Source: Rugalucina vietnamica
Lineage: Eukaryota > Mollusca > Bivalvia > Lucinida > Lucinidae
DNA length: 64,000 bases
Assembly (NCBI GenBank): GCA_964017185.1
Contig: OZ024872.1
Location: 45,842,188-45,906,187 of the forward strand
Reading direction: 5' to 3'
This document shows positions 792-58,415 of the stretch, in pieces; position 1 is the stretch's first letter; the number at the start of each line of letters is the position of its first letter. The notes under the pieces are model-generated. The model was not told the origin of the DNA and searched no databases. It worked only from the letters and a program-made list of their open reading frames with translations. The position numbers and the translations under genes are program-made.

Positions 792-1385
792 CAGGGTCTC
801 TATAGAAGGGGTCAAGAATCTTTGTCCTATGTTCAAAATTCTTGTATGTCAGTTTCATATTTACTCACCTATAAAACATACATTCAAAATTTATAATTAA
901 TGTCAATTTACCATAATCCTGTTATTAATTCTTTCATTTTTTCTATATCAGAACATGCTAAATTATCCAGTCTACATTAATAATAGTACTATAGTTTGGA
1001 ATTTATATATGTTTTGACTTAATATGTACCACAGTGTCCATTTTCACATTTTTTCATGCATTTTCACAATTTTCTTGAACATTGCACAATTTATTTTGTT
1101 GAAAATTGTATGAATGTGAAGCTGACATGATGCATTGCTTATTATATTGTATTTCGTTTTTCACAATTTTTACTGTGATAAATTCACTTTTGAGTGTTGT
1201 AACAACTTCTTACACTGTCCCTTATATATCACGGGGTCTATTCTCTAAGCCTCTATAATCTGGTGTCGTCCAGGTATAAGCAGGTTCCGGTAGTGGTTGT
1301 GAAAAATTGAATGTAAACAAAGAAATGGAGTAGACAGGTGAACAGGTAAGTTGCATGATTACTGTTTTATCTTTTGATTTTGAAT

Positions 1386-1652
1386 AAAAAGGTACAAGTA
1401 GGCAAAGATCAGGAAAAGGCGCAATCAGAAAAAGATTCCCACTCCAAAAACCGAGGTGGGAAAAAACCAAACTAACAATCAGGTACTTATACCATGAAAC
1501 ATATCGTAAGCCGAATGAGCAGCTATTTTCCCAATAGGTGGCCACTCAGTTACCTTAACTTAACTAAAAATATGAAAACATACATAAGGCGCCAACAGCA
1601 CAAAAATTTTTAAACACCAAGACATAAAACAAAAAGAACCACTACAGAAGTA
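1386..1652 (-). mobile_element. Naiad (Penelope-like) 3' tail, 5'-truncated
   Basis: On the minus strand this matches the last ~265 bases of the full Naiad copy at 27738-32017, including the terminal segment GCCTACTTGTACCTTTTT. It stops upstream near the CTTCTGTGGTGG segment of the 3' UTR. No coding part is included. This is the usual product of incomplete reverse transcription. The same cut-off region is seen in the copy at 58162-58415. Confidence 0.85.
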
Positions 1653-2779: not shown

Positions 2780-3388
2780 TTGGTTGGGGCCGGAGCTTCT
2801 TGTCTGTTGCTTGGCCCACCGGGGTCCAACTGATGTTTTTTTTTCGCTCCGGAATTAGTAAGTTATTTGGCGCCCAGGGATCTCCATCGTCGGGCAGCTT
2901 ACTGAATCTGTGTGTCCTGGTTTTTGATTCATCAGGATGTTTATCATGATTTATTTGTTTGTTCTTGATGATTCATTTACTAGTTAGGGATTCACCACGA
3001 GGACCGAAGAACTAACTAAATGTTATGAACCACTGCAGAAGCTGAGGGTGAGGTTACGGCCGTGTAAAATCGATTTAAACCCGCCAGTAACTTTGTGTTA
3101 CTGATCGTTCCAAGTCGATACTTCTGTGGTGGTTCTTTTTGTTTTTTGTCTTGGTGTTTAAAATATTTTTGTGCTGTTGGCGCCTTATGTATGTTTGCAA
3201 ATTTTTAGTTAAGTTAAGGTAACTGAGTGGCCACCTATTGGGAAAATAGCTGCTCATTCGGCTTACGAAATGTTTTCATGGTATGGGTACCTGATTGTTA
3301 ATTTGGTTTTTTCCCACCTTGGTTTTTGGAGTGGGAGTCTTTTTCTGATTGCGCATTTTCCTGATCTTTGCCTACTTGTACTTTTTTG
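2780..3388 (+). mobile_element. Naiad 3' tail, 5'-truncated, ~610 bp
   Basis: Matches the 3' UTR of the full Naiad copy from its beginning (TTGGTTGGGGCCGGAGC, just after the RT stop) to the terminal GCCTACTTGTAC. It includes the whole region with the long stem GAACCACTGCAGAAG/CTTCTGTGGTGGTTC. The first stem arm differs from the full copy by one C-to-T change that leaves a G-U pair. No coding sequence is attached, so it is a dead insertion. Confidence 0.9.
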
Positions 3389-4462: not shown

Positions 4463-4512
4463 ACTATAATACTTTCACTGTTAATCGTACAAACTAGTTG
4501 TAATGCTTATAA

Positions 4513-4578
4513 GAAGGTACAAGTAGGCAAAGATCAGGAAAAGGCGCAATCAGAAAAAGATTCCCACTCCAAAAACCG
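4513..4578 (-). mobile_element. Naiad 3' terminus, very short copy
   Basis: Sixty-six bases matching the minus strand of the Naiad 3' end, from AAGGTACAAGTAGGC to CCAAAAACCG. An extreme 5' truncation that marks the minimal transcribed 3' end of the family. Confidence 0.8.
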
Positions 4579-5371
4579 TGGCCTATTACTGTTCGATCTA
4601 CAGTAACATTTTAACGAAAGTCTTAATGTGTGCAACTGCACATATTAATTATGGTATTGTCTGTTAAAAGAGTACATATCACGAACGAATCTCAATAATA
4701 ACGAAAACTTAACAGTTTCATGTTTTTTGAAAATATCTCACAACCCATGATTTTGTGCTTTGCATTCACACCACCCCTACATTTTATACTTATTCGTTAC
4801 ATGTTTACATGCTGTTCTTGCTCCAAAGCAAAATGACATGCTATTTCTTGAATATTAAAATCATTGAAGACCAACAAGTATACTCACCTTTAGCAGTCTG
4901 CTCAAAATCACAAGTGTGTCGACAAATCAACCAAAATGTACCGCTAGTTTATTTTCTCGCGGATGAGGCACGTGCTTTTACGAGCTTTGAACATTGTCGC
5001 TGAACGCTTCTCAAACTTTTGCAAAGATTTGTTAATGCTAATTTGATGTTTTAATATGTATCTAGAGACTGCACTTCAAAAAATGTACATTGCTGACCTA
5101 AGTTCTTATATTTTTCTCATTTTATGCAGAAAACAATGAAACACCCGACTAAATTGACCTTAACCAGCACAACTCCCGAGCATATTGGCTTGAAGAATAG
5201 ACCCCGTGTATATGGTACTTAACATACCTGAGTTTTTTATTATTGGAAAAATCAATTCATAGTTTCTTGACCCCTTCTATAGAGACCCTGGTTTTGGGTA
5301 ATGGCTCTTTATTAAATATCTTCAATTACCTACACAACTGACAATCACGTGGTATTGTTTACATACAAACC

Positions 5372-5905
5372 GATAAATGATCAGTGACACACACTGCAAT
5401 TGAGGCAGAAGTTGAGGTTAGATATTCGAGTTTTCTCCTATAGCGTGTACTCTATTGAAAAAATAGATGGGTGCAGAAATTTAATATTTATTGAATGAAA
5501 GTAACATAAGAAATCCTAGACGGAATATTTCCATCGGTATTCCGTTAAGCCTCTCCAAGGATGTGTAAAGAGGTACCGAAGTGGAGCGGAGTGACAGTTA
5601 GCCAGCTGATCTAAAGAAATCCCGGTTATTTTGTTTTCGCAAACACTTCAATGTTATTGTGTTAGAAGCACTATATATGTTCATGGGGCGGAAGTGTTTG
5701 CGAAAATGAAATAACCTGGATTTCTTATGTTACTTTCATTCAATAAATGTTCAATTTCTGCATTGACTGCGTCTATCTATCAGTCAGTAGAGTAAATGGT
5801 ATACATGGTATAGGAGAAAACTCGAATTTTTCATCTCAACGTCGGGCGGAACTGCATTGTGCGTCACCCATTCCATACCGCGTGTTTATCAGCTGTAAGA
5901 TAATT
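5372..5905. repeat. fold-back element with inner hairpin
   Basis: Arms at about 5400-5520 and 5730-5900 are inverted copies of each other, sharing TTCGAGTTTTCTCCTATA and TTATTGAATGAAAGTAACAT. A second inverted pair lies inside, at 5614-5648 and 5690-5725 (AAGAAATCC...GCAAACACTTC). The whole unit can fold into a long stem. There is no coding content. Likely a non-autonomous fold-back or MITE. Confidence 0.65.
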
Positions 5906-5986
5906 TAGTTTTTTCCCACCTCGGTTTTTGGAGTGGGATTTTTTTCTAATTGCGCCTTTTCCTGGTCGTTGCCTACTTTTACATTT
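5905..5986 (+). mobile_element. Naiad 3' tail fragment joined to inverted Naiad body
   Basis: Matches the last ~80 bases of Naiad on the plus strand (TTTTTTCCCACCTCGG to GCCTACTTTTAC). It directly abuts, at about 5987, a minus-strand Naiad RT segment. Head-to-head and tandem junctions of this kind are characteristic of Penelope-like element insertions. Confidence 0.8.
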
Positions 5987-7075
5987 TTAACCCAACATTA
6001 TGTTTGGAAATCAGTTCATAGTGTCTACGATAAAATTTAGAAAATGTTTTTTCGAAGTTTATGATACCGATAGCCCTGTTTGATTAGTCTGGCCGTTAAA
6101 CATTTATTTCGAGCGTTGAAGTCCGTAACATGATTGCAGACTCTAGCACACCTAATAAGTTGCGAAATGTATACACCATAAGAAGCACGACGAAAACCGG
6201 AAAATTTACTTATCAAAATCAAAGGCATCGCGTATATCATAAATTTAAGAAGAGACAAATCCATTTGTAAACAGAGAGGTGTAAATCTTAAAAAAGGGGG
6301 CTTCGGTATCTGAGATAATTGGCTTTGTTCAACAGTTACTGTAGTTCAGGTGGATAAATTTGATTGGCCATACCTTCAAAATAAAGGTTGTCAATGTTCA
6401 AAAGGTCATCGAGGTACCTGGGAGTAGAAAATTAAAAGCTTCGATGGCATCAGCTTGTTTATCATGGTTAAGAGAATCCATGAAATCTCTTTCGTAGCAA
6501 TATAAAAATAAATCAGCTACGAGAGGTGCGCAATTTGTACCCATCGGAATTCCAACAATTTGTCTGTATAACTTGGTCCCAAATCTAATGTAAGTATTAT
6601 CCATGAGATAGGATAAGGCGTCACGCACATTCTGACATGACCAAAGTGTATACCGACTTTGGTCAAAGGAAGTGAAAAAACCCTTTCTGTCATTACATAC
6701 CAAATAAAGTGAACCATATTTTTTAATGGCCTTTCGAATGTCCACTCTATCAAATCCAGAAGTTTGTCGTTAATTAGATTGTGTGGCAGTGTTGTATACA
6801 GAGTAGAAAATTCATCTCTACACTTCAATTTACTGAGCACTTCGTCAGAATTTTTATTGACCATAACCATTTTATTAAGTTTCATACACTGTCTCACAGT
6901 ATCTTATGACATGAGGTTTGATAGCAGTAAGACTTGGAAAGTTCAGTAGCAGTACAAGAGCTAGAATTTGCAATAAATCTAGCTTTGTTCGACCTTTTGT
7001 GAAGCTTAGGTAACCAATACATTGTAGGAAGTTTGTCTTGGCCTTCAATGGGTGTTTTTATAAACTTTGTCCCCA
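5987..7075 (-). pseudogene. Naiad reverse transcriptase, truncated and frameshifted
   Basis: On the minus strand this is a broken copy of the RT of the intact element at 28160-31393. Recognisable blocks, from right to left, are the LPKLHKR motif, the TLYTTLPHNLI region, the GIPMGTNCAPLVADLF block and the region around FNARNKCLTARL. These fall in different frames with internal stops, so no functional enzyme can be made. It begins mid-RT and ends about 300 bases before the normal stop, where it meets the plus-strand tail at 5905-5986. The N-terminal GIY-YIG domain and the recoded TGA sites are not included. Confidence 0.9.
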
Positions 7076-21659: not shown

Positions 21660-22379
21660 ACTAGGCATGACCCCTTGCGGACTCCCTACGATCACTGCAC
21701 GATTTTTGTCCCCAAACTATCATACAAAAATGACGAGGTGACCGCTTGATCAGCGCAGGGTCTCCGTACGGCGCCCGTATGATGAAAATGTAAAAATTGT
21801 ACGATCATCGCAAGCTAATTGTAGCCAAGGCATCAGTCAGAAGTCCAAGGGACTCCGTACTTTGTCCACTAAAAGTCTTCGAAGACCCTACGACTATCGC
21901 ACGACCGCCTTGCGTTTTGTATCAGAACGTATAGTGACTCCGTACGGACATCGCACGGGTTCCGTACGATATCCACTTATATATAGGCTTAATGGAGATA
22001 GAACGTATTATCGTTGCAAAGATTGTACAGAATTAGCAAACGTACATAAAGTTGGTTTATGAAAGAAAAAAAAATGTTTCCAGGGGTTGTATTTTAAAAC
22101 ATTTTCTCTGAAACTGCTTATTAATCGCAGGCCTTTTGTTTTGGTTCTAGTGATATTTAAAGGATCTTGTTATTTATAATCTATCTTTGTAATTACAACC
22201 TGGATTCTCGATTAACGAGTTTTTATGAGATACGGTAAATGGCGAGGGTTGTTCGGAATTAGTCGCCCTGTCAATTTAGATCAGTATATTTGAGAACGCT
22301 TGATGATAAGAAAAAGTAAAGATCAGAAGAAGTTAAAAAAAAATCATATATGCGCAGCACATTGCATTACTAAATTTAG

Positions 22380-22720
22380 TTAAATCATAGTAACTGAGTG
22401 GCAATCTATTGGGAAATAGAAAATCACTCGGCTTACGATGTATTCTAAGTATAATAAGATTGTACATAAATGTCAATTTAGTTTTTCCCACCTCGGGTTT
22501 TGGAGTGGGCCTTTTCTCGATCATTACTTACTCTTACTTTTTAGGGCATGTGCATATTAAAGGGCACTGTGTTGTCATCGGACCTTTATATATATAGCTC
22601 TCGTTATTTATTCTATGAAAACGTACAATAAGTTATTCATCACCGACATTGAAGATCCATGGGCGCCGAATAACTAACTGAAATCCGGAGAAAAAGAAAA
22701 ACACAAGCTGAACCGCGGTG
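22380..22720. mobile_element. diverged Naiad-type tails in inverted arrangement
   Basis: 22380-22545 resembles the Naiad 3' end on the plus strand (GTAACTGAGTGGC, CCACCTCGGGTTTTGGAGTGG). 22635-22720 resembles an inner part of the same tail on the minus strand (TGGGCGCCGAATAACTAACT). The sequence is clearly older than the other copies. The inverted junction matches that at 5986/5987. Confidence 0.65.
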
Positions 22721-23429
22721 GTATGCCCGACGAGTGCATAGGCGTGACTAACAATGCTTTTAAGTCAAATTTACAGAATATCCACTCTCTGTATCGGTAG
22801 CCAACGCTACCCATAGAGAAAGGAAAATATTTTTAAAAACATAATTTGCAAATAAAAGTTTGGATGACCAAACGCTGAGCTAGGACAAGACTGAGTTGAT
22901 AAAATCGTTCGGAAACTGCCGGAGTTCGGGAATTCATGAATAGACATGCCCACTCTGGTATTTAGCCGTCGGTTCAGGGATTACATGTTCAATTATCTTA
23001 TATCCGTCTCGACGTGACTTTTACCTTGTTGACTGAGGCGCGCTGACATGGCTAAACCACATTTAAACATACTAAAAAAGCAATGGCTTAAATCTCTCAT
23101 AAGGTCGTACGAGTTACCTATCTTGACTATTTCGAGGTCATGGCTCTATCATTTGAAGTTGCTTCCCTTTTACCATCAGCGGCTTGTATTGAGCAATTGG
23201 CCAATTAAAGCCAAATAACAAGAAGTGAGAACCAATGTTTCGACATTATGTGTTTAAACATAATCCTAGACAAATGACCAAGATGCCTGCCATATGCCCA
23301 CACACTTCTTCCAAACTTTTACTCTCGGGAACTGCTGAATCTATTGCAATGAAACTTGACATGTTGCAGATAACCACTATGTGTTATTCTGGCCCTGCCC
23401 TAGGGCTATCTATATGACCATTATATATG

Positions 23430-26813: not shown

Positions 26814-28159
26814 AATTGCAACGGCGCCACCTCAGATAGCCATTGCTTAACTGTATTCGGTCAGGAGGCTGTGACGCAGTTACAAAAATCTGTTGTGGGT
26901 TCGACCTGTGCTGTACTCAATGCTATATGGAAGAGAAAATATTCCAAGCCATCATTTTCAAGTTTAACAAATTTATTTGTATTCCCTTAACAATGAGAAA
27001 TTTCAGATTTCTTTTAGTTATACAAATAACAATTACTGCAGTTACAGTTGTACAAAGAACCGATAGCCGTTGACCTTGATGAACTTTGAGTGTACAACAC
27101 AGTATAGTATTACATTAACGAGTTATCTATTATGATCAATAATATCAATGGAATAATGATTGAATGATTAGTTTACTATTCAAAAATACAACAGTGCAGT
27201 TGCAGTTATAGACATCAGATAAATTACAATTATTTGGCCTAATACCTTAAACGTAATGCAGTTGTACAACCCATTCTCCTATGGTTTAATTATTCCTACT
27301 TTATTTATTTTACAATTGCCGTTGTACAACTAAGACCCTTAACAATTTAAGAAACTATTGTATTTACTTTAATATGCAGTTGCATTTACAGTTCAGATTA
27401 AATGTTCACTTCAAAACTTGTTAATTCTACCAGATATTAATTAATAGTGACAGTATAATACAGCAAGTCTTAGTTTATGCAAAAGTACAACCAATTACTG
27501 CATTTAGGTACACCACTCTTCTATAAACAAATACACATTTCCTATATACTTTGAAATTGCAATCCGTAAGTTACCAACCAAAGCTCAAAATAAGCTCACA
27601 ACAATGCAACTAATTGGATTGCAACCACAAGTATCAGCAACAAGTCAGGCGGAAACCGTGGCGTGAACCGTGGCGTAAACCGTGGCGTCAACTCAGGCGT
27701 GAAGTGAGGCGCAGAGTCTGGCAAAAACTAATCCTTGCTTTTTTTTGATTGCGCCTTTTCCTGATCTTTGCCTACTTGTACCTTTTTATATCAGAGTTCT
27801 TGTGGTTGTGCCGTGTGGCGGCCCTAAAAAGTCTCCCCGTACATCCATTTAATGCTCTTATTTTTCCAATCCTCAGGGATTGCTTGCAATCAGTTTGTAT
27901 TTTCCTATCTCTAACTACCACAACTCTTCGATACCGTATTGAAGGTCATTAGTTGACCGTCACTCGTATCTCGTTGTATAAGCGATTCTTACGTTTCTAT
28001 CCATGGACTTGTATTAGACATGGACCTGAGGTGTGGGTTTCGGTTATACCTTTTTCTTTCATTCGAAAGATTTTGCATTACGATTAAGTGCATTATTGAT
28101 TCTATAACCGGTATGAGTGTCGCGCTCCTTTTGGCAGTATCAACACAATACTCCCAACT

Positions 28160-31100
28160 ATGACTATCACAAAAAGATTAGGAATTACATTAACTCCCCG
28201 TAGGTTGCATGCCGCGTCTACTGTACGGATTCCTCATTCAACTAACAATTTTCAAAATTTATTACCTACTGTAAGGGTGACACCTCTTAATTTATTTTCG
28301 GCATCTACTGTTAATCTACACGGAGCTTCTAATTCTAATATGTTTCGCAATAATCTTCAGATTAGGTTATCTCCACTCAAATCACCAATTTTACGTAAAT
28401 ATATTAATCCGTTCAAGAGACCTGGAATGTACCCTAGTATTTCTAAGTGCAATGCCAAGAAGTGCAACTGTTGCAATCATTTATGCTCTAAGACTACTAT
28501 CACTTCATCTGTGAATGGTAGGACATTTTCAGTGGTTAATGATTCTGATTTAGACTGAAAATCAATGGATCTTGTATATGTTCTTACTTGAAATACAAAC
28601 AATTGTAGGATGCAATATGTTGGACAAACTTGTCGAACTTTGCAAAAACGATTTGGTGAGCACTATCGTAGAATCAGAAAGCCCAAAAATAATGATACCT
28701 TTCTGTACCAGCATTTTAAGCGCACTGGTCATTCTCCCAAAGATGTTAAAGTTCAACCAGTGGAGAAAATCACATATGATGAAAATTCTTCAGTTAGATT
28801 CAAAAACATTAAACGATTTGAAACTGAACTTAAATGGATAAAATTACTGCAAACACCCTTTCCACTGGGATTTAACGACAACATTTACCATGAAGGCAAT
28901 ATTTCCAAAATGCCCGATTTTGATGTACTTACACTTTCGGACTCTCGTAAACGTAAATCTAGATCTCATGGTATACGGAAAAAGGGTAATGACAAACGTA
29001 AACGGTGCGCTGCATTGAAATTGAACATTTCTCTTAATGATTTAGCTGTTAAACTAAGGATTCACGGTCGACATCCAATGCTGTCGTATCTTAGTTCTCT
29101 ACCTATTGCTGCATTACGTTCCTTGGACACAGAGGCTAATAGATTTTACGATAGAAATCATCAAATGTATGGCGCTGCACTGTTAACAAGATGTTATACT
29201 CAGCATGCTCTTCGTCCATTTATCGATTCCAAATCTAATCACATTAGAAGTTTTATTAAAATTCCTTTCATCAATAAAGGAATTGACTTTATTGATTTAC
29301 CAAGCATATTCCAGGATAAATCAGTGATACAGTCTATACCTACCTACTTCCAAAATTCAGAACCTCCTATTATTTGTTACAAATATAACAAACCAATCAG
29401 AAATACTATTTTTAATTTCAATAAACTTGTTTCTGATCTTGATATCCATGCTAATACTCCTAAGTCTTGAAATTGTAAAGATTCAAAATATGTTTATCAA
29501 CCCGCTGGACATATTGTTACTGGAAATTTAAAAATAATTTCGGATTCTAGAATTCGCAAAATTGTTTCTAAAGGTCCGAAATATAGATTCCCTTCCTACA
29601 TTAATTTCGACAAATGTAGAGAGGAGATTTCATCTGCATTAAATGATTTCGGTAATCGATGGTGTAAACGAGAGGGTGTTGAGGATAATGCTCTTAAAGA
29701 ATGGAAAAGAAGTATCTTCACTATCGTGGATAAACGTACTAAGTTTTATTCACAAAATACTAATCTTTTACCTCCTAAACCCAAATCGTCATTTAGGCAT
29801 TTGAAGCAGGGTATCCAAGAATTTCATAGAAAGTATGTCTTGGTTCCGGCAGATAAAGCCGCAAACAATGTTGTTGTCGTTTGTAGGCTTCACTACGTTA
29901 ACACCTTAAAACAGGAGCTTGATGGTACCAGGGCTTATCTGGAGACAGATACTGATGAGGTGTCTGTAGTTAATGCCCACTTAAACGATTTACCTGTTAA
30001 GTTTTCTGTTTGTGTCAATGAAGGCCAAGACAAACTTCCTACGATGTATTGGTTACCTAAGCTTCACAAAAGACCATACAAAGCTAGATTTATTGCAAAT
30101 TCTAGCTCTTGTACTACCACTGAACTTTCTAAATTATTAACTTCCTGTCTTACTGCTATCAAATCTCATGTTATAAGATACTGTGAGACAGTGTATGAAA
30201 CTTCAAATAAAAATTGGTTTTGGTCAATTAAAAATTCTGGTGAGGTGCTCAGTAAATTGAAGTGTAGAGGGTTCCGTGCGACAAGCTTGTCCACATATGA
30301 TTTTTCTACTCTGTATACAACATTACCACATAATCTAATAAAAGAAAAACTTCTGGATTTGATAGAATGGACCTTCAAAAGGGCATTTAAAAACTATGGT
30401 TCACTTTATTTGGCATGTAATGACAGAAAGGCTTTTTTCACTTCCTCTGACCAAAGTCGGTATACACTTTGGTCATGTCAGAATGTATGCGATGCCTTAT
30501 CCTATCTCCTTGATAATATTTATATTAGATTTGGGACCAAGTTATACAGACAAATTGTTGGAATTCCGATGGGTACAAATTGCGCACCTCTCGTAGCTGA
30601 TTTATTTTTATACTGCTACGAAAGAGATTTCATGGATTCTCTTAACCATGATAATCAAGCTGATGTTATCGAGGCTTTTAATTCCACATCTAGGTACCTC
30701 GATGACCATTTGAACATTGACAACCCTTATTTTGAAGGTATGGTCAATCAAATTTATCCACCTGAACTTCAGTTGAACAAAGCCAATATCACAGATACTG
30801 AAGCCCCCTTTTTAGATCTACATCTTTCTGTTGCAGATGGATTTGTTTCTTCTAAAATTTATGATAAGCGCGATGACTTTGATTTTGATATAGTAAATTT
30901 TCCTTTTTTGGATGGTGACGTTCCTCGTCGTGCTTCTTATGGTGTATACATTTCGCAACTTATTAGGTTTGCTAGAGTCTGCAATCATGTTACAGACTTC
31001 AACGCTCGAAATAAATGTTTAACGGCAAAACTTCTCCAACAGGGCTATCGGTATCATAAACTTCGAAAAACATTTTCTAAATTTTATCGTAGACACTATG

Positions 31101-31393
31101 AATTGATTTCCAAATATAATGTTGGGTTAAAGTCGCTTTTAAGTGAGGGTCTTTCGGAACCTGAATTTTATGGTGACTTGGTTTACAAATTTAAGAAACT
31201 TAAAGGAATTAATGATTTTTCTTTTCAGTTCAGAAAAATCATAACACGTTACAGACGTATAGGTTATAACTTAAATGTTATGCGACAGTCTGCATGCTTA
31301 GTTTTTAACCCAATCATGGTTGATAACTACGCTGCCTTCTTTAATTGCACGCCGGTGGGTCGGGCGTCAGACTCTATGATGGCCCCGACATAA
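28160..31393 (+). CDS. Naiad polyprotein: GIY-YIG endonuclease and RT, with 3 in-frame UGA codons
   Basis: One frame of 1077 residues ending in TAA, broken only by TGA at codons 133, 144 and 437. Codons 133 and 144 flank the LVYVLT strand of the GIY-YIG fold (YVGQT at 153-157), where family members carry zinc-binding Cys. Codon 437 makes UGA-Asn-Cys, the CxC motif of the linker. RT motifs follow: LPKLHKRP (~631), DFSTLYT (~714), GIPMGTNCAP (~801) and the catalytic YLDD (846-849). Selenocysteine at these positions is the simplest reading, because clam Naiads are reported as selenoproteins. ATG at 28160 is the first in frame after TAA (28085) and TGA (28097). The alternative, three random nonsense mutations, is unlikely with no TAA/TAG or frameshift in 3.2 kb. 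Confidence 0.9.
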
Positions 31394-31655
31394 AGCTATT
31401 CATTTTAGTTGGTTGGGGCCGGAGCTTCTTGTCTGTTGCTTGGCCCACCGGGGTCCAACTGGTGTTTTTCTTTTGCTCCGGAGTTAGTAGGTTATTCGGC
31501 GCCCAGGGATCTCCATCGTCGGGCAGCTTACTCAGTCTGTGAGTCCTGGTTTTTGATTCATCAGGATGTTTATCATGATTTATTTGTTTGTTCTTGATGA
31601 TTCATTGACTAGTTAGAGATTCACTACGAGGACCAAATAACTAACTAAATGTTAT

Positions 31656-31764
31656 GAACCACCGCAGAAGCTGAGGGTGAGGTTATGGCCATGTAAAACC
31701 GGTTTAAGCCCGCCAGTAACTTTGTGTTACTGATCGTTCCAAGTCGATACTTCTGTGGTGGTTC
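31656..31764 (+). promoter_or_regulatory. structured 3' UTR stem, candidate SECIS
   Basis: GAACCACCGCAGAAG (31656-31670) pairs fully with CTTCTGTGGTGGTTC (31750-31764). Just inside, UGA on the 5' side faces CGA on the 3' side, as in the non-canonical core of a SECIS. An inner hairpin CAGTAAC/GTTACTG follows. The stem is kept in the tail at 2780-3388 with a G-U-compatible change. The second helix and apical AA loop of a standard SECIS are not clear by eye, so the call is tentative. Confidence 0.35.
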
Positions 31765-31845
31765 TTTTTGTTTTATGTCTTGGTGTATAAATTTTTTTGT
31801 GCTGTTGGCGCCTTATGTATGTTTTCATATTTTTAGTTAAGTTAA

Positions 31846-31888
31846 GGTAACTGAGTGGCCACCTATTGGGAAAATAGCTGCTCATTCG
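31846..31888 (+). other. conserved hairpin in the Naiad 3' UTR
   Basis: GAGTGGCCACCTATT and AATAGCTGCTCATTC form a stem with two C-C mismatches and a GGGAA loop. It is present in nearly every tail copy in the window (for example 3224-3266 and, on the minus strand, 1512-1554). It may serve RT recognition of the 3' end. This is inference. Confidence 0.5.
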
Positions 31889-32017
31889 GCTTGCGATATG
31901 TTTCGTGGTGTGGGTACCTGATTGTTAGTTTGGTTTTTTCCCACCTCGGTTTTTGGAGTGGGAATCTTTTTCTGATTGCGCCTTTTCCTGATCTTTGCCT
32001 ACTTGTACCTTTTTAGT

Positions 32018-34691: not shown

Positions 34692-35960
34692 CTAATATTT
34701 CCAAAGCTCGGCTAAGCGGTTTTCAATAATCTTGCACAGTCCCTGAATACGATAATATTCGCACTCCTTTTTTAATTCAACAAGGTACTTCCTCTTTTTA
34801 GGCAACACCGCTGGGTTTATTTCAAGATTATACCGTAGGTAGTTAAGAATTATTTTGAAGTGTGAGGGGTCACGGTCAAAGAATATGGTGTTTCCCTGGG
34901 CTACCACTGATGATTCTGTAGTAAATATTTTTGCGAACAAGGAATTTGGATCGTTCCGTAGGGTAGGTCTACTTGTTTCAAACCTAGCCCCTCCAACATT
35001 TAAAATGACTCGACTATTTTTGATTTCTTTCAGCATTGCAAGATCCCTGTCTTCACAATACATATCCTCCTCAGTTTCAGTATCCCTGTTTGCTCTCTTT
35101 GTTGTGTGTCTGTCCTCCTTGTCCTCCAATACATCTCTCTTCCTTTCTCCTGTATTTGTTTTTATTATTTCTTCAATGTTTTCCTCCTCTTTATTTCTCC
35201 TACTTATTACTTCTTCTATTGCATGGTTAATAATCCCATCTATTTCACTGTTAATTATGTTGAGCTCTAGCACTTCTAAGGCTGCATCAGCCATTACTGA
35301 TTCGGATTCCCTTTCATTTGAGTTTTCCATTTCTTTCTCTATACTTTCAACGGCTCTAATGGTTTCATTCTCATCTTCATCTGCCCTCACACACCTACAT
35401 GATTCCAACCCTTCATTTTCATTATCGATTGGCGTTATAGGCCTCATTTGCATGAAGGAGAAAGTTTCTGTCATAGCCTGTAATATTGAACCGACTTCCA
35501 AATCATTTTCGCTAGTTTCTCTGACTAATTCTAAATTCCTTCCCTTTTTAGCACTGCTTTTGTCATTCATAATCTGTTTTTCTTTGTTCTGTCTTTCTTT
35601 CACTGATTTAAGTTTATTATTGTCTCTTTGTTCACCTCCCAAATCTTTTTCCTTTCCACTTTCCTTGACACTTTCCACCCTACAGTTTTGCTTGTCTTTC
35701 TTCTCATTTAAGGTACACACTTTTGCTTTTGTCGTAATACTGCTCCCTTTTCCCTTTTCTACACCCTTAACAGGTTCATTCTGTTTTTCATTTTGTTTTC
35801 TTCCTTTTTCTTTATTTTCACTGTCTTTAGAAGGTTTATTTTCCTTATTTGCATCACTTCCTTTATGTTTCTGTTTTGTCTTTTCACTTATATTGCTTTC
35901 AGTCTCTTTCTTTTTCTCAATTCCTTCTGCTTTCTTTGTAGTGCTTATACTTTCTTTCAT
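34692..35960 (-). CDS. Lys/Glu-rich protein with C-terminal KCTD-type BTB (T1) domain
   Basis: Frame of 422 residues from ATG. Residues 1-150 are strongly charged and probably disordered (repeated Lys, Glu, Asn, Ser). The middle part (150-310) is acidic and helical-looking. Residues 317-410 form a T1/BTB domain of the potassium-channel-tetramerisation family: VILNVGG.RFETSR..L, then IFFDRDP.HFK.ILNYLR and a final LKKECEYY..IQGL. This domain mediates oligomerisation and, in KCTD proteins, often links to cullin-3. No transmembrane segment is present, so it is not a channel. The frame is the same as that of the ORF at 35985-36965, with one TAA between, so both may once have been a single protein. 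An antisense 371-codon frame is a low-complexity shadow. Confidence 0.7.
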   Translation of the reverse strand: MKESISTTKKAEGIEKKKETESNISEKTKQKHKGSDANKENKPSKDSENKEKGRKQNEKQNEPVKGVEKGKGSSITTKAKVCTLNEKKDKQNCRVESVKESGKEKDLGGEQRDNNKLKSVKERQNKEKQIMNDKSSAKKGRNLELVRETSENDLEVGSILQAMTETFSFMQMRPITPIDNENEGLESCRCVRADEDENETIRAVESIEKEMENSNERESESVMADAALEVLELNIINSEIDGIINHAIEEVISRRNKEEENIEEIIKTNTGERKRDVLEDKEDRHTTKRANRDTETEEDMYCEDRDLAMLKEIKNSRVILNVGGARFETSRPTLRNDPNSLFAKIFTTESSVVAQGNTIFFDRDPSHFKIILNYLRYNLEINPAVLPKKRKYLVELKKECEYYRIQGLCKIIENRLAELWKY

Positions 35961-35984
35961 TATGTTATGAACTTCCTTCTCTAC

Positions 35985-36965
35985 TTACCTTGCCATTTCT
36001 CTCTGTTTTTCTTTTCCTTGATTATTACTAGCACTGTCTCTCACTTTTTCATTGTCATGTGTCTTTCTTTCAACCGCTTTCCCTTTATTGTTCTCCACTG
36101 CCTTTTCCTTTTCTTTTCCTTGTTTACTACTGCCACTGTCTTTCACTTTTTCATTGTCATGTGTCTTTCTTTCAACTTCTTTCCCTTTATTATTTTCCAC
36201 TGTCTTTTCCTTTTCTTTTCCTTGTTTATCACTTGTACTTTCTTTCACTATTTCATTTTCTTTTGACTTCTCCTTTTGCTTTTCCTTTCTCTGACTACTA
36301 CTTGAACTGTCTCTTTTGTTTTTATTTTCCTTTGATTTTTCCTTTCTGTCCTTTTCAATCCCTTTCAGTTTTTCATTCACATCTGACGTCTCCTTTTGTT
36401 TTTCTTTTTCTTTGTCCGTTCTCTTTCTATCATACTCCTGTGACATTTCCTTTCCTCTGTTTTCAGTCTTTTTCAAATTTTCATTCACCTTCGTCTTTTC
36501 CTTCTGTTTTTCATTTACTTTCTCAGTTCTTTCATCATGCTTAATTGGGTTTTCACTTTCAACATTGTCATCATCACATTCATAATTCAAATCCTCTTCA
36601 CTTTCAGTGTCAGAACAAGATCCACTGGAGCTAGAACCACTACTACTGGAGCTGCTACTAGCTGACAGACTGGAGGCAGTGGACAGGGTGGGACTTATGA
36701 CAAGATCCTCAGCTACTTGGTCACGAGAGTCCACATGTAGCCTCTGGATTTTCCTGGGAGGCTCCTCCAACGAGATCTCTGGTTCTTCCATCATCTCAGG
36801 TGACATGGTCTCCTCACGTGGCATGGGAGCAATTGGGGGATGGGGGACAACGACAACAGATCTAATATCTGTGGTAGCCTTAGCAGCCTTCAGCCCTTCC
36901 TCATAGTCATCGACTGTGACATACTCCCAATGTTTATCCTGACCTTGGATAAACGTAAGTAACAT
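35985..36965 (-). CDS. charged low-complexity protein segment (Ser-rich, then Lys/Glu repeats)
   Basis: Frame of 326 residues. Residues 1-60 are ordered-looking (GQDKHWEYVTVDDYEEGLKA), followed by a Pro-rich stretch, a Ser run at about 98-115, an acidic patch, and from about 140 a Lys/Glu/Asn-rich tail. The tail has a ~34-residue tandem repeat (ENNKGK.VERKTHDNEKV, two to three copies) visible in DNA at 36040-36220. It ends at TAA in AAG|GTAAGTAGAG, which also reads as a strong splice donor (35988). The frame continues open on both sides, to the zinc-finger ORF across TAG at 37011-37013 and to the BTB ORF. Function unknown; likely the middle of a multi-part protein. Confidence 0.55.
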   Translation of the reverse strand: MLLTFIQGQDKHWEYVTVDDYEEGLKAAKATTDIRSVVVVPHPPIAPMPREETMSPEMMEEPEISLEEPPRKIQRLHVDSRDQVAEDLVISPTLSTASSLSASSSSSSSGSSSSGSCSDTESEEDLNYECDDDNVESENPIKHDERTEKVNEKQKEKTKVNENLKKTENRGKEMSQEYDRKRTDKEKEKQKETSDVNEKLKGIEKDRKEKSKENKNKRDSSSSSQRKEKQKEKSKENEIVKESTSDKQGKEKEKTVENNKGKEVERKTHDNEKVKDSGSSKQGKEKEKAVENNKGKAVERKTHDNEKVRDSASNNQGKEKQREMAR

Positions 36966-37853: not shown

Positions 37854-40800
37854 TTATGTTGTCTTATGCATGAACCAAACAGGCTTATCTTCCCCTAAAT
37901 ATGGTTTCAACTTATCATGGTGAACTACTTGCGGTTTTGCTTTTGGGCCAGACTGAATTTTGAATAGAACATCGTTCAGACGTTCGACAACTATGTAAGG
38001 TCCCTTCCAAGGCCTTTGTAGTTTTGGGTTGAAGCCTAGTCTTCGTTTGGGGTAATAGTACCACACTGCATCTCCTACTTTGTAAGGAATTTTGTGCAGT
38101 TTAACATCATATCTCCTTTTCATGCTTTCACTCGAAATGTTCAAATGTTTTCGAGCGAAGTCATGAATTTCTAAGAGTCTTTGCTCTAGTTGATAGGCAT
38201 GTTCGGTAGCACATAGCCTATCATCTCGTATTGGTCTTCCCAGCGTCATGTCTACGGGCAGTGTCAACTCCCTGCCAAACATCATCATTGCAGGGGAAAT
38301 TCCCGTAGATTCATGAACCGAGGAACGGTATGCCATCATCAGGAGGGGTATATGCTCATCCCAGTCATTCTGACTATCTGATATATAGGATGAGATCATA
38401 TTCTGAATTGAGCGATTAGCTCTCTCGACCATTCCATCAGACTGAGGTCTACGAACAGTCGTTCTGGTTTTGTCTATTCCCATGAGTTTACAAACCTCTT
38501 GAAATACCTTGGATTCAAAATTTGAACCCAAGTCCGTGTGCAACTGTAATGGCACTCCAAATATAGATATGAATCTATTTACAAGCTTCGATGCAACATA
38601 TTTGGCATCTTGTGATTTCAAGGGTATAGCATCTATCCATTTAGTAAAGTAACATGATACAACCATCAAATATCTGTGCCCCTTCTGGGAAACAGGGAAT
38701 GGACCACAGATATCAAGTCCAATGCGTTCCATTGGGTATCCGACATTATATTGTCGCATGGGTGCTTTTGCATTTCTATGTGGCATCTTCCTAGAGCCAC
38801 AGGTTGAACATATCCTACACCAGTATGAAACATCTTTGTGCATACAGCACCAATAAAACCTCTTTCTAATCTTATCATAGGTTTTACGTCTGCCTAAGTG
38901 ACCACCAGTCAAACCTTCATGTAACTGGCGGAAGGCTTCTTTTCGGAGGACAGCTGGCATGAGAAATAAGTATTCGGCATCGTTGCCTATATCTCTAAAG
39001 CGCTTTTTATACAGAATATTATCTTTCAATTCTATTGTTTCCCATTCATGCCAGTAAGCTTTGAGTTCTTTGCTCAAAGGTGCCACCGTAGACCAAGCCG
39101 GCTTTGAATCATCTCTTTTCCATTGAATCAAATGATTTAAGACAGGGTCCTCCTCCTGTCTTAAACGAATATTTTCCTGTGTAAGATCTAAACACACATT
39201 GGTTTGACCACAGGACGAGGTGGATTGGCCATTTCCACTACTAAGCTGACAAATATTTAAACAAGATCTACAAATACTTTCACAACACCGACGATCGTCT
39301 TGAAGGGTGTCAGGGTTTGGATTGTCTGAGCATTCAGTCTCGCCATCGTCATGGCGAGCACCCATTTCTTTTATCACGCCAGCATGACCAACATCTACCT
39401 CTGGGGAAATTTCCCCAGTCTCAAATAAACACCCAAACAGTGAGTCATCTCCAAGGCGATCTATCCAATCTTCCATTTCAAAATATGCTGCATTTATGCA
39501 GCAACAACAATGTACTGAACGACAAAAGAATTTAGTGAGCCTTGCCTCCGCCCCAACACACACAGAGCGAGTCGATGCATGTGCGGAGTGAGGAACCCCA
39601 TGACAGGATATTCCATGTGACTCTTTTTCAGAGGACACCTCAGCTGCTCTAGGTCCGAAATCAGTAGTAGTGTGCACATTCCTACCACTGGAGTTGTCGT
39701 CAGTAAATGGGCGCGCCATGTACCCAGGATTCTCATCCGGGACATTATTTGCACTTACAATGTGCTTCTGAATGGTACCATCAAAAGAAGTGTCCTTGAG
39801 ATCATTCACATCAGGGTGAATGTCCCTAGTGTCACCCCTAATGCAGAGCAGGGCGATATTATCACCCCTTACTTTTTCAGTTGTAACAGCTTTCTGTTCA
39901 ACATCATTCCACCCTGCATTTAAGTCAGCATTTTTCTCCAGAGAATATCTTTGTTCATATCTATCACAGTGTCTACACTGGTTGTCATAACATGGTCTAC
40001 GGGACAATGCGTCTGCATTATTATGCACCCTACCTGCACGGTGTACAATTGTAAAGGTGTAGGCTGATAGGGTCTCTATCCAGCGTGCGATTTGACCTTC
40101 ACAATTCTTGAATCGCATAAGCCACTGGAGTGATCCATGATCAGTTCTGATTGTAAATTTTCTCCCTATCAAATAGTGATGCAGGTTTTTCACTGCCGTA
40201 ACTACGGCTAACAACTCTTTTCTGGTTGTACAATACTTCATTTCAACTCTTGACAGACATTTACTAAAGTAGCATATCACTTTTTCCTCACCATCTTGCA
40301 CTTGCGACAGGACTGCCCCTACACCAACATTTGATGCATCACAGTCAAGCAGAAATGGTTGGTCCTGTAGCAAGGGATAACTAAGGATAGGAGCGGTGGT
40401 GAGTAATTGTTTGATTGTGTCAAACGAAGTCTGTGTCTTGTCATTCCAAATAAACTTTGAGTTAAACTCAGTCAATATATGTAGGGGCTTACATATGGTT
40501 GCAAAGTTGGGAATGAACTTCCGGTAGTAAGAGGCTAACCCAACAAACTGTCTGACCTCTGTCGAAGACTTAGGCTGGGGCCAGTCTCTTACAGCTTGAA
40601 TTTTTGCTGGATCAGTAGCTATTCCTTGTTCAGAAACCTCATGACCAAGGAAAGCTACCTTAGGGCACAGCAAATTGCACTTTTTGGGATTGAGCTTAAG
40701 GTTTGCATGCTTCAGTCTTTCCAAGACTACCTTCAAATTCTCTAAGTGCTCTTTGAATGTTTTGAAATAGACAATAATGTCATCCAAGTATATGAGTAAT

Positions 40801-41261
40801 ATGAGATAAGTCAAACCGGCGAAAACTCTCTCCATAAGGCGTTCAAACACACCTGGTGAATTAATTAATCCAAAAGGTAATACACGCCATTGCCACAAAC
40901 CACTGCCTGGTATGGAAAAAGCTGTCTTAGGTCTGTCCTCCTCAGCAATACTCACTTGATGAAACCCACTTTTCAAATCCAATGTTGAGAACCAACAGGA
41001 GCCCCCAAGAGCATCTAAAGTGTCGTCAATCCTGGGTAAAGGATGACTGTCTGGAATAGTGAGTTGATTCAGCTTTCTGTAGTCGATACAGAACCTTGTT
41101 GTACCATCACGTTTTGGCACCAACACAGCCGGAGCACTCCATGCAGAACAAGAAGGCTCAATCAACCCTTTTTCAGCCATAGCTTTAATTTCATTTTCAG
41201 CAAATTCTCTTTTTGCAAGGGGTATCCTGTATGGTTGAACACTTTCCTGTTCAGTGAACAA
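37854..41261 (-). CDS. pol: Ty3/Gypsy pol: RT, RNase H, Cys-rich spacer, integrase (5'-truncated)
   Basis: Frame of 1135 residues. RT: STLDLKSGFHQ (Asp 95), LPFGL.NSPGVF, catalytic YLDD 158-161. RNase H: Asp 308, Glu 349, Asp 374, Asp 417 (NNADALSRRP). A spacer of ~270 residues (425-700) is rich in Cys/His and has no family I recognise. Integrase: HHCC finger (His 781, His 788, Cys 818, Cys 821), then a DDE core at Asp 850, Asp 910 and Glu 946 (SDGMVERANR), and a GPY/F-like end (RPWKGPYIV). HTDLGSNFE has Leu where HTDQG is usual. Gag and protease are missing: TAA lies two codons before the first residues, and an inverted Gypsy derivative begins right after. All catalytic residues are kept, so the decay is recent. 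Confidence 0.9.
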   Translation of the reverse strand: MFTEQESVQPYRIPLAKREFAENEIKAMAEKGLIEPSCSAWSAPAVLVPKRDGTTRFCIDYRKLNQLTIPDSHPLPRIDDTLDALGGSCWFSTLDLKSGFHQVSIAEEDRPKTAFSIPGSGLWQWRVLPFGLINSPGVFERLMERVFAGLTYLILLIYLDDIIVYFKTFKEHLENLKVVLERLKHANLKLNPKKCNLLCPKVAFLGHEVSEQGIATDPAKIQAVRDWPQPKSSTEVRQFVGLASYYRKFIPNFATICKPLHILTEFNSKFIWNDKTQTSFDTIKQLLTTAPILSYPLLQDQPFLLDCDASNVGVGAVLSQVQDGEEKVICYFSKCLSRVEMKYCTTRKELLAVVTAVKNLHHYLIGRKFTIRTDHGSLQWLMRFKNCEGQIARWIETLSAYTFTIVHRAGRVHNNADALSRRPCYDNQCRHCDRYEQRYSLEKNADLNAGWNDVEQKAVTTEKVRGDNIALLCIRGDTRDIHPDVNDLKDTSFDGTIQKHIVSANNVPDENPGYMARPFTDDNSSGRNVHTTTDFGPRAAEVSSEKESHGISCHGVPHSAHASTRSVCVGAEARLTKFFCRSVHCCCCINAAYFEMEDWIDRLGDDSLFGCLFETGEISPEVDVGHAGVIKEMGARHDDGETECSDNPNPDTLQDDRRCCESICRSCLNICQLSSGNGQSTSSCGQTNVCLDLTQENIRLRQEEDPVLNHLIQWKRDDSKPAWSTVAPLSKELKAYWHEWETIELKDNILYKKRFRDIGNDAEYLFLMPAVLRKEAFRQLHEGLTGGHLGRRKTYDKIRKRFYWCCMHKDVSYWCRICSTCGSRKMPHRNAKAPMRQYNVGYPMERIGLDICGPFPVSQKGHRYLMVVSCYFTKWIDAIPLKSQDAKYVASKLVNRFISIFGVPLQLHTDLGSNFESKVFQEVCKLMGIDKTRTTVRRPQSDGMVERANRSIQNMISSYISDSQNDWDEHIPLLMMAYRSSVHESTGISPAMMMFGRELTLPVDMTLGRPIRDDRLCATEHAYQLEQRLLEIHDFARKHLNISSESMKRRYDVKLHKIPYKVGDAVWYYYPKRRLGFNPKLQRPWKGPYIVVERLNDVLFKIQSGPKAKPQVVHHDKLKPYLGEDKPVWFMHKTT

Positions 41262-41282
41262 CTCTTACGATGGTCGCAAATA

Positions 41283-56046: not shown

Positions 56047-58161
56047 TTTTGATTCTGACTTTATAAGAAGTTATACCACTTTTACCTTGTAAATTCTCCA
56101 TTTAAATGTTCAATAGTCACATCAACACATATGTTATGTATTACCTTTCATACTCATTTTAGTATAATAACTATTAATAATTTTATTGCCTGATGAAGAA
56201 AACAAAACACAGTGTAATGATTTATCTTAGAAAGAATACTTTAGTATAATATTTTTTTTTTTTAAATACATGTAACATTTACGTCTGCACAATGTGTCAT
56301 ATACAAAGCAATTTGATAAGTAACATTCTTAACTAATCTTAATCTAATTCCAGAGTCTTCTAGTGTTGTTTCTTCACTGTAGGATGCTTTGCGTATTAAT
56401 GTCTATTTTATATGTTCATCACGTTTCCGAGTTCTGTTCCATATTCCTCTCCTAAAGTGTCCATTTTCATTCACTAAATTTATATTAAAGTTTATGTTTA
56501 TAATGCATGTTATTTCACGTAGATTAATATAAAATACACATCCGATTTATTAATGCGCGATAACGCGGGTCTTTCAGATGTCGTCTTCAACATAAGTGTC
56601 CCCATCCGGTCGTCTTAGCCCATATATGGATATGAACTACCAGCAAATCATCTAGTTCATATATGAATATGAACACCAAGCGTCTTTTAGTTTGTCTATA
56701 GAAAACAAACAACAACAGCCTCGGTTGTTAAGCTACGGTCAACATAGGATCCTTTATAAATCTGTTTTAATTTTCAGATCAATTTTCACAAACTTGTGAA
56801 ACTCTTTGCCCAGTAATATTTATATATTCATTTTCCATTTCAGGTGTTATCTCCGGCCTCAAACATTTTCAAAATTGTCATAAGTGTATGGATGATGACC
56901 AGACCTTGTAATTATTCACCTTGTGTTTTCTGCATACGCAACAGCTTGATTCGCTGCACATATCTGCGTCAGGAAGTGCACATATACGCTCGTATCTGCT
57001 ACGAGATATCATCATTAATTGTCATTCTATATGTTCTATATGTACATGTATGTCTTTAGACTCACGGTTCACTTAGTCACCAGTGGACAGACTATGCTTT
57101 ATGTTCAGTAATAAAAGCTCAGGGAATAACTGATATTTGCTATCTTGCAGGCTTTAACTTCTTTATGCTTGTGTATTACTTTTCCCCTAGGTATCTAACT
57201 CCGAGGTATAATTTAGCATAAGCTAAACGAATATTCGTCTGCTTACTGTTCTACATAGAAAGTAACAGACATCATTCACTTTATATAATATGCCCCGTTG
57301 TATGGGCAGCATATCACTATATCCGTTTTGGTTTAATGCAGCATTGTGCTTTATATTTTCTTTTTAACCCCCTTCCAGGTTATCAATGTTGGGTATACAC
57401 CAACGAAAATCATGGTACATTTATGTGCATGTAACATTACCGTAATTTTGTCAAATTCGGTATAAGCAACAGTTACATTTAGCGTAACTGGATTAGGAGG
57501 ACAGCTGGCATGAGAAATAAGTATTCATGATCATCATTAATCCATCATTCATATATCTTCGAAGCGCTTCTCTTGTATGTGGTTATTATTATTCTGTCCT
57601 TTGTAATCCATTCATGCCAGCAAATTTTGAGTTCTTAACTCAAATGTGCCACCGTAGACCGAATCTAATCTTCATCCCTCTTAACTCGGATGTTACAAAC
57701 GGTTTGAGACATAGTCCTCCTTCTGCCTCAAACAAATACTTCCTGTGTAATAACTTAACACCTTTTTGAACCACCACAGGAAGACGTAGACTGGCCAAAT
57801 CCACGATTGGGCTGACTAATACGCTAAAAATACTTTCATTCCGATGATCAGCATGGGTGGTCCCAGTTTGGAACGTTTGGACATTCAGACTCGCAAAGAC
57901 ACCTAGGATCGTCAGAATGAGCACCCAATGTAGCAATCACGCCAGCGTGAACTACACCAAACTCAAGGGAAGTACCCCCAATCTCAAGCAAACATCCAAA
58001 GGATTTCTCACTAGCCATGCGATTCATCCAATCTTCCCGATAATATAATATTCTTATACAGCAACAACAATGTACTGGTCGACAAAAAAAATAAATTTAG
58101 TGAGCTTTTGCCTCCGCCCCAACACACACAGAGCGAGTCGATGCATGTGCGGAGTGAGGAA

Positions 58162-58415
58162 AAAGGTACAAGTAGGCAAAGATCAGGAAAAGGCGCAATC
58201 AGAAAAAGATTCCCACTCCAAAAACCGAGGTGGGAAAAAACCAAACTAACAATCAGGTACTTATACCATGAAACATATCGTAAGCCGAATGAGCAGCTAT
58301 TTTCCCAATAGGTGGCCACTCAGTTACCTTAACTTAACTAAAAATATGAAAACATACATAAGGCGCCAACAGCACAAAAAAATTTAAACACCAAGACATA
58401 AAACAAAAAGAACCA
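58162..58415 (-). mobile_element. Naiad 3' tail with GGAA target duplication
   Basis: 254 bp matching the Naiad 3' end on the minus strand, flanked by GGAA (58158-58161 and 58416-58419). The related pol gene has the uninterrupted GTGAGGAACCCCATGAC at 39586-39602. It gives a precise 3' boundary for Naiad transcripts. Confidence 0.85.

Follow-up and report, generated by a model that had tools for sequence, protein, structure and literature searches.

Penelope-like elements are retroelements which, unlike telomerase reverse transcriptase (TERT), are copied from their own RNA. Among them, the Naiads were reportedly named by Craig, Yushenova, Rodriguez and Arkhipova in 2021 in Mol Biol Evol, and are said to combine an N-terminal GIY-YIG endonuclease, a CxC linker, a telomerase-like reverse transcriptase (RT), a tandem/pseudo-LTR structure and a high copy number, with selenoprotein forms bearing multiple selenocysteines (Sec) in spiders and clams. 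Here we describe a locus of the bivalve Rugalucina vietnamica, lying in a stretch of 64,000 nucleotides which was analysed as a whole and is called the window below. The locus very probably holds a Naiad-type Penelope-like retroelement that encodes a three-Sec selenoprotein and carries a SECIS element straddling the 3' end of its open reading frame (ORF). Compared with the selenoprotein Naiads reported by that study, it has the same domain order with a CxC linker, multiple putative Sec, the tandem/pseudo-LTR structure and a copy number that may be very high. It is thus probably another selenoprotein Naiad, a type reportedly published already, and the stop-straddling SECIS and the probable fourth Sec discussed below may also be in print. 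A literature search joining Penelope-like elements with selenocysteine/GIY-YIG or with selenoproteins returned no match in the library searched.

Several Sec in one chain are also found in multi-Sec selenoproteins such as SELENOP (PMC8230778). Our element resembles them in its several putative Sec per chain. It differs in encoding an enzyme of a mobile element, in which Sec would take Cys sites of the metal or disulfide type, and in that the one SECIS found overlaps the coding sequence rather than lying wholly in the 3' UTR.

Architecture of the element and its reading frame

On the plus strand, positions 28160-31393 read as 1,077 codons followed by the stop TAA, and the sole interruptions are TGA triplets at 28556 (codon 133), 28589 (codon 144) and 29468 (codon 437). 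Translation thus confirmed the original prediction of a single 3.2-kb frame interrupted by three TGAs only, with no TAA, TAG or frameshift. At the local base composition the chance of meeting neither TAA nor TAG over 1,077 codons is about 4e-25, and each of the five remaining frames across this region contains 43 to 148 stops. The features of the element are as follows, all on the plus strand.

27740..32015 (+): retroelement unit as inserted, a monomer of 4,227 nt whose 49-nt end is repeated once
27740..27788 (+): left-hand 49-nt terminal direct repeat, edge of the pseudo-LTR
28160..31393 (+): single ORF by translation, with N-terminal GIY-YIG endonuclease, UxC linker and telomerase-like RT, ending in TAA
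28556..28558 (+): in-frame TGA, putative Sec133; Cys in homologs, close homologs end at 132
28571..28783 (+): GIY-YIG domain match (Pfam PF01541), residues 138-208
28589..28591 (+): in-frame TGA, putative Sec144, inside the GIY-YIG domain; Cys in 19/19 aligned homologs
29387..31171 (+): RT region, residues 410-1004, with a telomerase-like predicted fold; motif A D714, YLDD 846-849
29468..29476 (+): CxC linker written UGA-Asn-Cys (putative Sec437, C439), at Cys columns of homologs
31368..31435 (+): SECIS element straddling the ORF end (Rfam SECIS_1)
31656..31764 (+): second strong 3' UTR hairpin, three-branched, with a 15-bp closing stem and fold z -5.2
31967..32015 (+): right-hand 49-nt terminal direct repeat

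The two direct repeats, 27740-27788 and 31967-32015, are 98% alike over their 49 nt. The 3' UTR hairpin at 31656-31764 could be a processing or template-recognition structure. A twister ribozyme in this hairpin was considered and rejected, as Rfam twister-P1 scored 20.8 bits against a gathering threshold of 67.2 and the P1 pairing is poor. No hammerhead ribozyme was matched in the Rfam scans of the element at the thresholds used; Naiads are not known to have a canonical hammerhead ribozyme.

Protein domains and assignment to Naiads

As had been anticipated, ordinary gene calling would split the frame into three, namely ORFs of 152, 292 and 640 aa counted from stop to stop. The TGAs might accordingly be real stops with three separate proteins made, a reading favoured by the fact that every segment is an ORF and that databases list such pieces as separate ORFs. 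This is extremely improbable when the endonuclease domain is considered. In fact, with a cutoff of 22.6 bits, PF01541 scored 27.9 bits for residues 90-249 and 29.4 bits for residues 135-249 with TGA read as Cys, and 21.0 bits for residues 145-249. Since the score rises from 21.0 to 29.4 on extending the piece backward, GIY-YIG clears the Pfam cutoff only with TGA144, which lies inside the match, read through. Moreover, just 10 codons separate the first two TGAs, distant relatives are one continuous protein, and a set of three proteins would leave the SECIS unexplained.

The first two TGAs had been said to frame the first GIY-YIG strand, which fits our results: the predicted strand 138-144 lies between them, with residue 144 as its last. 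For the endonuclease the CCHH set, which we take to be U144, C149, H168 and H185 here, is present by sequence with UGA for its first Cys, and columns 144 and 149 are both Cys in 19/19 homologs. The third TGA, as had been noticed, stands for the first Cys of the CxC linker between endonuclease and RT, which reads UGA-Asn-Cys at 29468-29476, and the second linker column, 439, is Cys in 51/56 homologs.

The GIY-YIG domain (PF01541, residues 138-208) is N-terminal to the RT fold (residues 410-1004) within one ORF. When the whole 1,077-aa reading was submitted to Pfam neither RT nor GIY-YIG was matched, GIY-YIG being matched in pieces only, and the piece 29471-31393 gave no RT match either. The RT was recognised by its predicted fold, which is telomerase-like and suggests kinship to telomerase RT, with an identity of 10-14% to TERT; compared with TERT the element carries the added endonuclease. 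A PDB sequence search with the element protein returned nothing credible, and viral contig scans with P0001 and A1 found no relative. Together with the 49-nt repeat, the partial copies upstream and the head-to-tail period of 4,226-4,228 nt, these features make the assignment to Naiad-type (N-terminal GIY-YIG) Penelope-like retroelements well supported, the clade name being taken from domain order and motifs.

The TGA sites in related proteins

The columns of the three TGAs had been proposed for a check for Cys or UGA in relatives, and the proteins compared speak for this pattern. With a query in which the UGAs were written as Cys, 86 database proteins were matched. Among these distant relatives, Cys is aligned to codon 133 in 17/18, to codon 144 in all 19 and to codon 437 in 50/56, the remaining six at 437 being 4 Trp, 1 Tyr and 1 Leu (P0083); the Pro at 133 and the Tyr at 437 look like alignment slips.

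Close relatives tend to stop where our element has TGA. Residues 1-132 alone had 432 homologs, and of the 120 listed ones that were examined 99 end exactly at residue 132 (65-100% identity) and 21 do not. Six of these 21 read through both sites, with Trp at 133 and 144 in 6/6, and P0275 and P0291 have Leu at 133. Likewise, the search with residues 145-436 found 1,215 homologs, of which 120 listed ones were examined. Among them 91 reach residue 425, and 77 of these 91 end exactly at 436 (about 50-98% identity), the other 14 showing frameshifts, continuations or short ends. Six of the 120 continue through 437, with Trp in five, Ser in one and Cys in none; P0202 has the Ser at 437 and ends at residue 574. 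None of the alignments of these 120 homologs includes residue 144, and 51 of them start at 151. As the length limits of both searches exclude relatives with Cys133/144 joined to the rest, the absence of nearby Cys forms is only partly tested by these counts. In addition the predicted proteins P0088-P0327, some of them with hundreds of member sequences, resemble fragments of the family cut at UGA codons.

Cys forms at a larger distance, at 29-39% identity, are the Naiad-like elements L043, L044, P0022, P0025-P0033, P0035 and P0036, which have the same domain order and conserved columns with Cys at the Sec columns. For example, L043 and L044 have Cys at 133, 144, 149, 437, 439 and 575, and their aligned parts are without stops. 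These two, for which DNA is at hand, have no gathering-level SECIS. As a side observation, L043, L044, L045 and L046 are Penelope-like elements on contigs of bacterial metagenome-assembled genomes (MAGs), a MAG of a Bathymodiolus symbiont holding two of the four, and these MAG loci are presumably eukaryotic contamination.

Trp readings and a possible fourth UGA

Trp in place of Cys occurs at both 437 and 575 in P0004, P0011, P0013 and P0014, and at 575 in P0018, P0020 and P0053, with Cys at 575 in 63 others. Elsewhere, Trp is seen at 514 in P0018, at 371 and 916 in P0020 and at 916 in P0053. P0119 ends NTPAS where its kin P0013 reads NTPASWDC, i.e., with a stop at exactly codon 437. A true Sec-to-Trp change at 437 was considered and dropped, since Trp stands at the Cys columns 437 and 575, and at 133 and 144 jointly, and close kin stop at 437. 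We infer instead that the Trp at these sites is TGA translated under a TGA=Trp code that the gene caller applied to some contigs, with TGG possible in some copies. As the Trp at 575 can be read as TGA in the same manner, some relatives probably have, to judge from their sequences, a fourth UGA and thus a fourth Sec at the conserved Cys575 of the RT. This residue is at the end of the predicted strand 567-575 and, by our reading, within the fingers region of the RT.

The SECIS element

A feature absent from the original prediction is an Rfam SECIS_1 match at 31368-31435 with 37.4 bits (gathering 35, E 6.5e-5). No other Rfam family reaches its gathering level anywhere in the 64-kb window, nor does SECIS_1 at a second place. 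Its AUGA core at 31376-31379 is spelled by the codons Met1073-Met1074, as checked letter by letter, and its apical AAA at 31392-31394 combines the second and third bases of the stop TAA with the base after it, so that the SECIS straddles the end of the coding sequence, with its 5' arm coding. The extended stem spans 31355-31448, and the fold of 31355-31450 has -48.7 kcal/mol versus -28.7 (sd 3.1) for shuffles, i.e., z -6.5. An AUGA/GA core with an apical A run is therefore present at the end of the ORF, presumably on a transcript shared with it.

Conservation was studied in two ways. Across the genomic copies, 5 minor alleles were counted in 3,937 bases of the SECIS, or 1.27 per kb, against 3.47 in the CDS, 6.7 at CDS third positions and 4.2 to 17.9 in the 3' UTR; as 9% of all 94-nt windows are as variant-poor, this paucity alone is not decisive. 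Among the SECIS matches in the fetched loci, 41/48 are identical to that of the window, a count in which overlapping fetches may double-count copies. At the protein level, SDSMM in the tail is shared by 19 database proteins besides the query, at identities from 72% upward. They agree with the query at 12-14 of the final 14 positions, versus 24-40 of the 40 before these. The most diverged four retain 12/14 tail residues against 24-25/40 before, and P0087 retains 14/14 against 30/40. Such tail conservation is what a SECIS beneath the last codons would impose, and speaks for it as 19 proteins that are not independent of each other. Two proteins at 77% identity, P0023 and P0064, speak against it, as they terminate with TSD partway along the tail, ahead of the codons that spell the SECIS core. 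P0017 and P0020 (about 50% identity) have different ends.

The UGAs could also be read through with no selenium involved, if Trp, Arg or Cys were inserted by a suppressor tRNA or a near-cognate one, or if the nuclear code of the host were a changed one, and the Trp at TGA sites in some gene-caller translations agrees with this. We regard it as very improbable, because a SECIS with the expected core stands at the ORF end as the only gathering-level one in 64 kb, and two Cys-form relatives have none at that level. Furthermore, base composition predicts about 19 TGAs across the 1,077 codons, but only 3 are observed, all at Cys columns.

Copies in the host genome

Searching the 1.09-Gb assembly at the protein level yielded 33,770 first-look candidates, a candidate not being a confirmed copy, and the best 43 were scored. 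These 43, with the window copy included, are 98.4-100% identical to the window copy, and all of them read TGA/TGA/TGA at the three codons; one has an additional in-register stop (TAG). The expectation that TGA is conserved at these codons in the genomic copies was thus borne out for the best-scoring copies, and since they were chosen as the most query-like, the shared TGAs alone are weak evidence. In 29 full-length, gap-free and again best-scoring copies, nonsynonymous changes per opportunity are fewer than synonymous ones in all three long segments, with ratios of 0.36 (codons 1-132), 0.22 (145-436) and 0.13 (437-1077), the low nonsynonymous rate being partly an effect of how the search selects copies.

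A decaying pseudogene, with stops falling at Cys codons by chance, would be in line with one peculiarity: the window copy reads YLDDH where the other 42/43 copies compared read YLDDL, so that this copy may be impaired or less active. The probability of such decay is nevertheless close to negligible, since the frame is without TAA, TAG or frameshift, the TGAs are common to 43/43 copies, and the sites are kept by most of the examined relatives down to 60-70% identity. Moreover, three random hits on such Cys columns (at least 14 columns kept in at least 80% of the matches, of 1,077) would occur with a chance of about 2e-6. The selenoprotein-form Naiad of the original prediction is supported by the Cys columns, the TGAs of the copies, the stops of relatives at 133 and 437, and the SECIS.

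As to the ends of the element, 33/43 long copy alignments begin at 27740 and 30 of those run to 32009-32015; some other alignments are cut by fetch limits. Copies are single or head to tail, with neighbouring tandem copies spaced 4,226-4,228 nt. One array has five units; 0-1 base differences over 4,226 separate its first four, and the fifth is offset or truncated towards its end, so that differences counted there cannot be set beside the others. Incomplete copies are often seen upstream, many of them cut by fetch limits. Within 100 bases on either side of 27740/32015 there is no target-site duplication of at least 8 nt. Six or more further pieces of the element family, 73-98% identical, lie elsewhere in the window, and the following were located.

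1385-1652 (-): other piece of the family
2780-3387 (+): other piece of the family
4510-4581 (-): other piece of the family
5901-5989 (+): other piece of the family
5986-7050 (-): other piece of the family
22375-22509 (+): other piece of the family
22643-22721 (-): other piece of the family
58160-58415 (-): other piece of the family

All of them except 5986-7050 (-) fall in the 3' part. A separate observation concerns the 3' UTR, where runs of A-to-G differences on the sense strand (at least 3, neighbours at most 15 nt apart) were seen 8 times at 4 places in 84 alignments, namely at 31893-31913 in the window copy and at the equivalents of 31691-31927 in L037, L012 and L021. The counterpart runs in the same 84 alignments number 0 for T-to-C, 2 for T-to-A and 1 for T-to-G. 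The A-to-G runs resemble traces of A-to-I (ADAR) editing that acted on the RNA prior to its reverse transcription.

Proposed mechanism and its meaning

The frame, the codons and their conservation, the sequence and fold of the SECIS, the domains and the arrays are seen in the sequences themselves, and Sec incorporation at the UGAs, current mobility and the chemistry gained from Sec are inferred. SBP2 and eEFSec of the host would decode the three UGAs as Sec and thus yield one endonuclease-RT protein of 1,077 residues, in which each Sec would replace a Cys conserved in related proteins: Sec133 just ahead of the GIY-YIG domain, Sec144 as the first zinc-type ligand, and Sec437 as the first residue of CxC. 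The GIY-YIG endonuclease would then nick the target DNA, and the telomerase-like RT would copy the element RNA at the nick, leaving monomers and head-to-tail arrays.

The overlap of SECIS and stop suggests a switch between translation and reverse transcription. As the core and the apical loop come from Met codons and the stop, a ribosome reading through must melt the SECIS at termination. It is conceivable, though doubtful, that finishing a protein switches off Sec decoding on its RNA for a short time, so that few full-length proteins are made per RNA and the 3' end becomes free for the newly made protein to reverse-transcribe, with a preference in cis. Were this true, mobility would also depend on the selenium supply of the host.

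From the sequence alone, our analysis supports a mobile element that uses the 21st amino acid, at a possibly very high copy number, and the SECIS/stop overlap offers a testable dual-coding arrangement. The Cys sites that Sec would occupy are of the metal or disulfide type; they belong to an endonuclease and, among relatives, probably to an RT as well. Having Cys and Sec forms in one enzyme family lets us ask what is gained by Sec versus Cys.

Other features in the window

Apart from the Naiad family, long ORFs overlap on both strands at 34692-36266: the ORF at 34843-35970 (+) has no Pfam match, and 34692-35984 (-) carries a BTB/POZ domain (PF02214). Further downstream, 37854-41264 (-) is a 1,136-aa ORF with RT, RNase H and integrase domains, whose order is Gypsy-like and points to an LTR retroelement.
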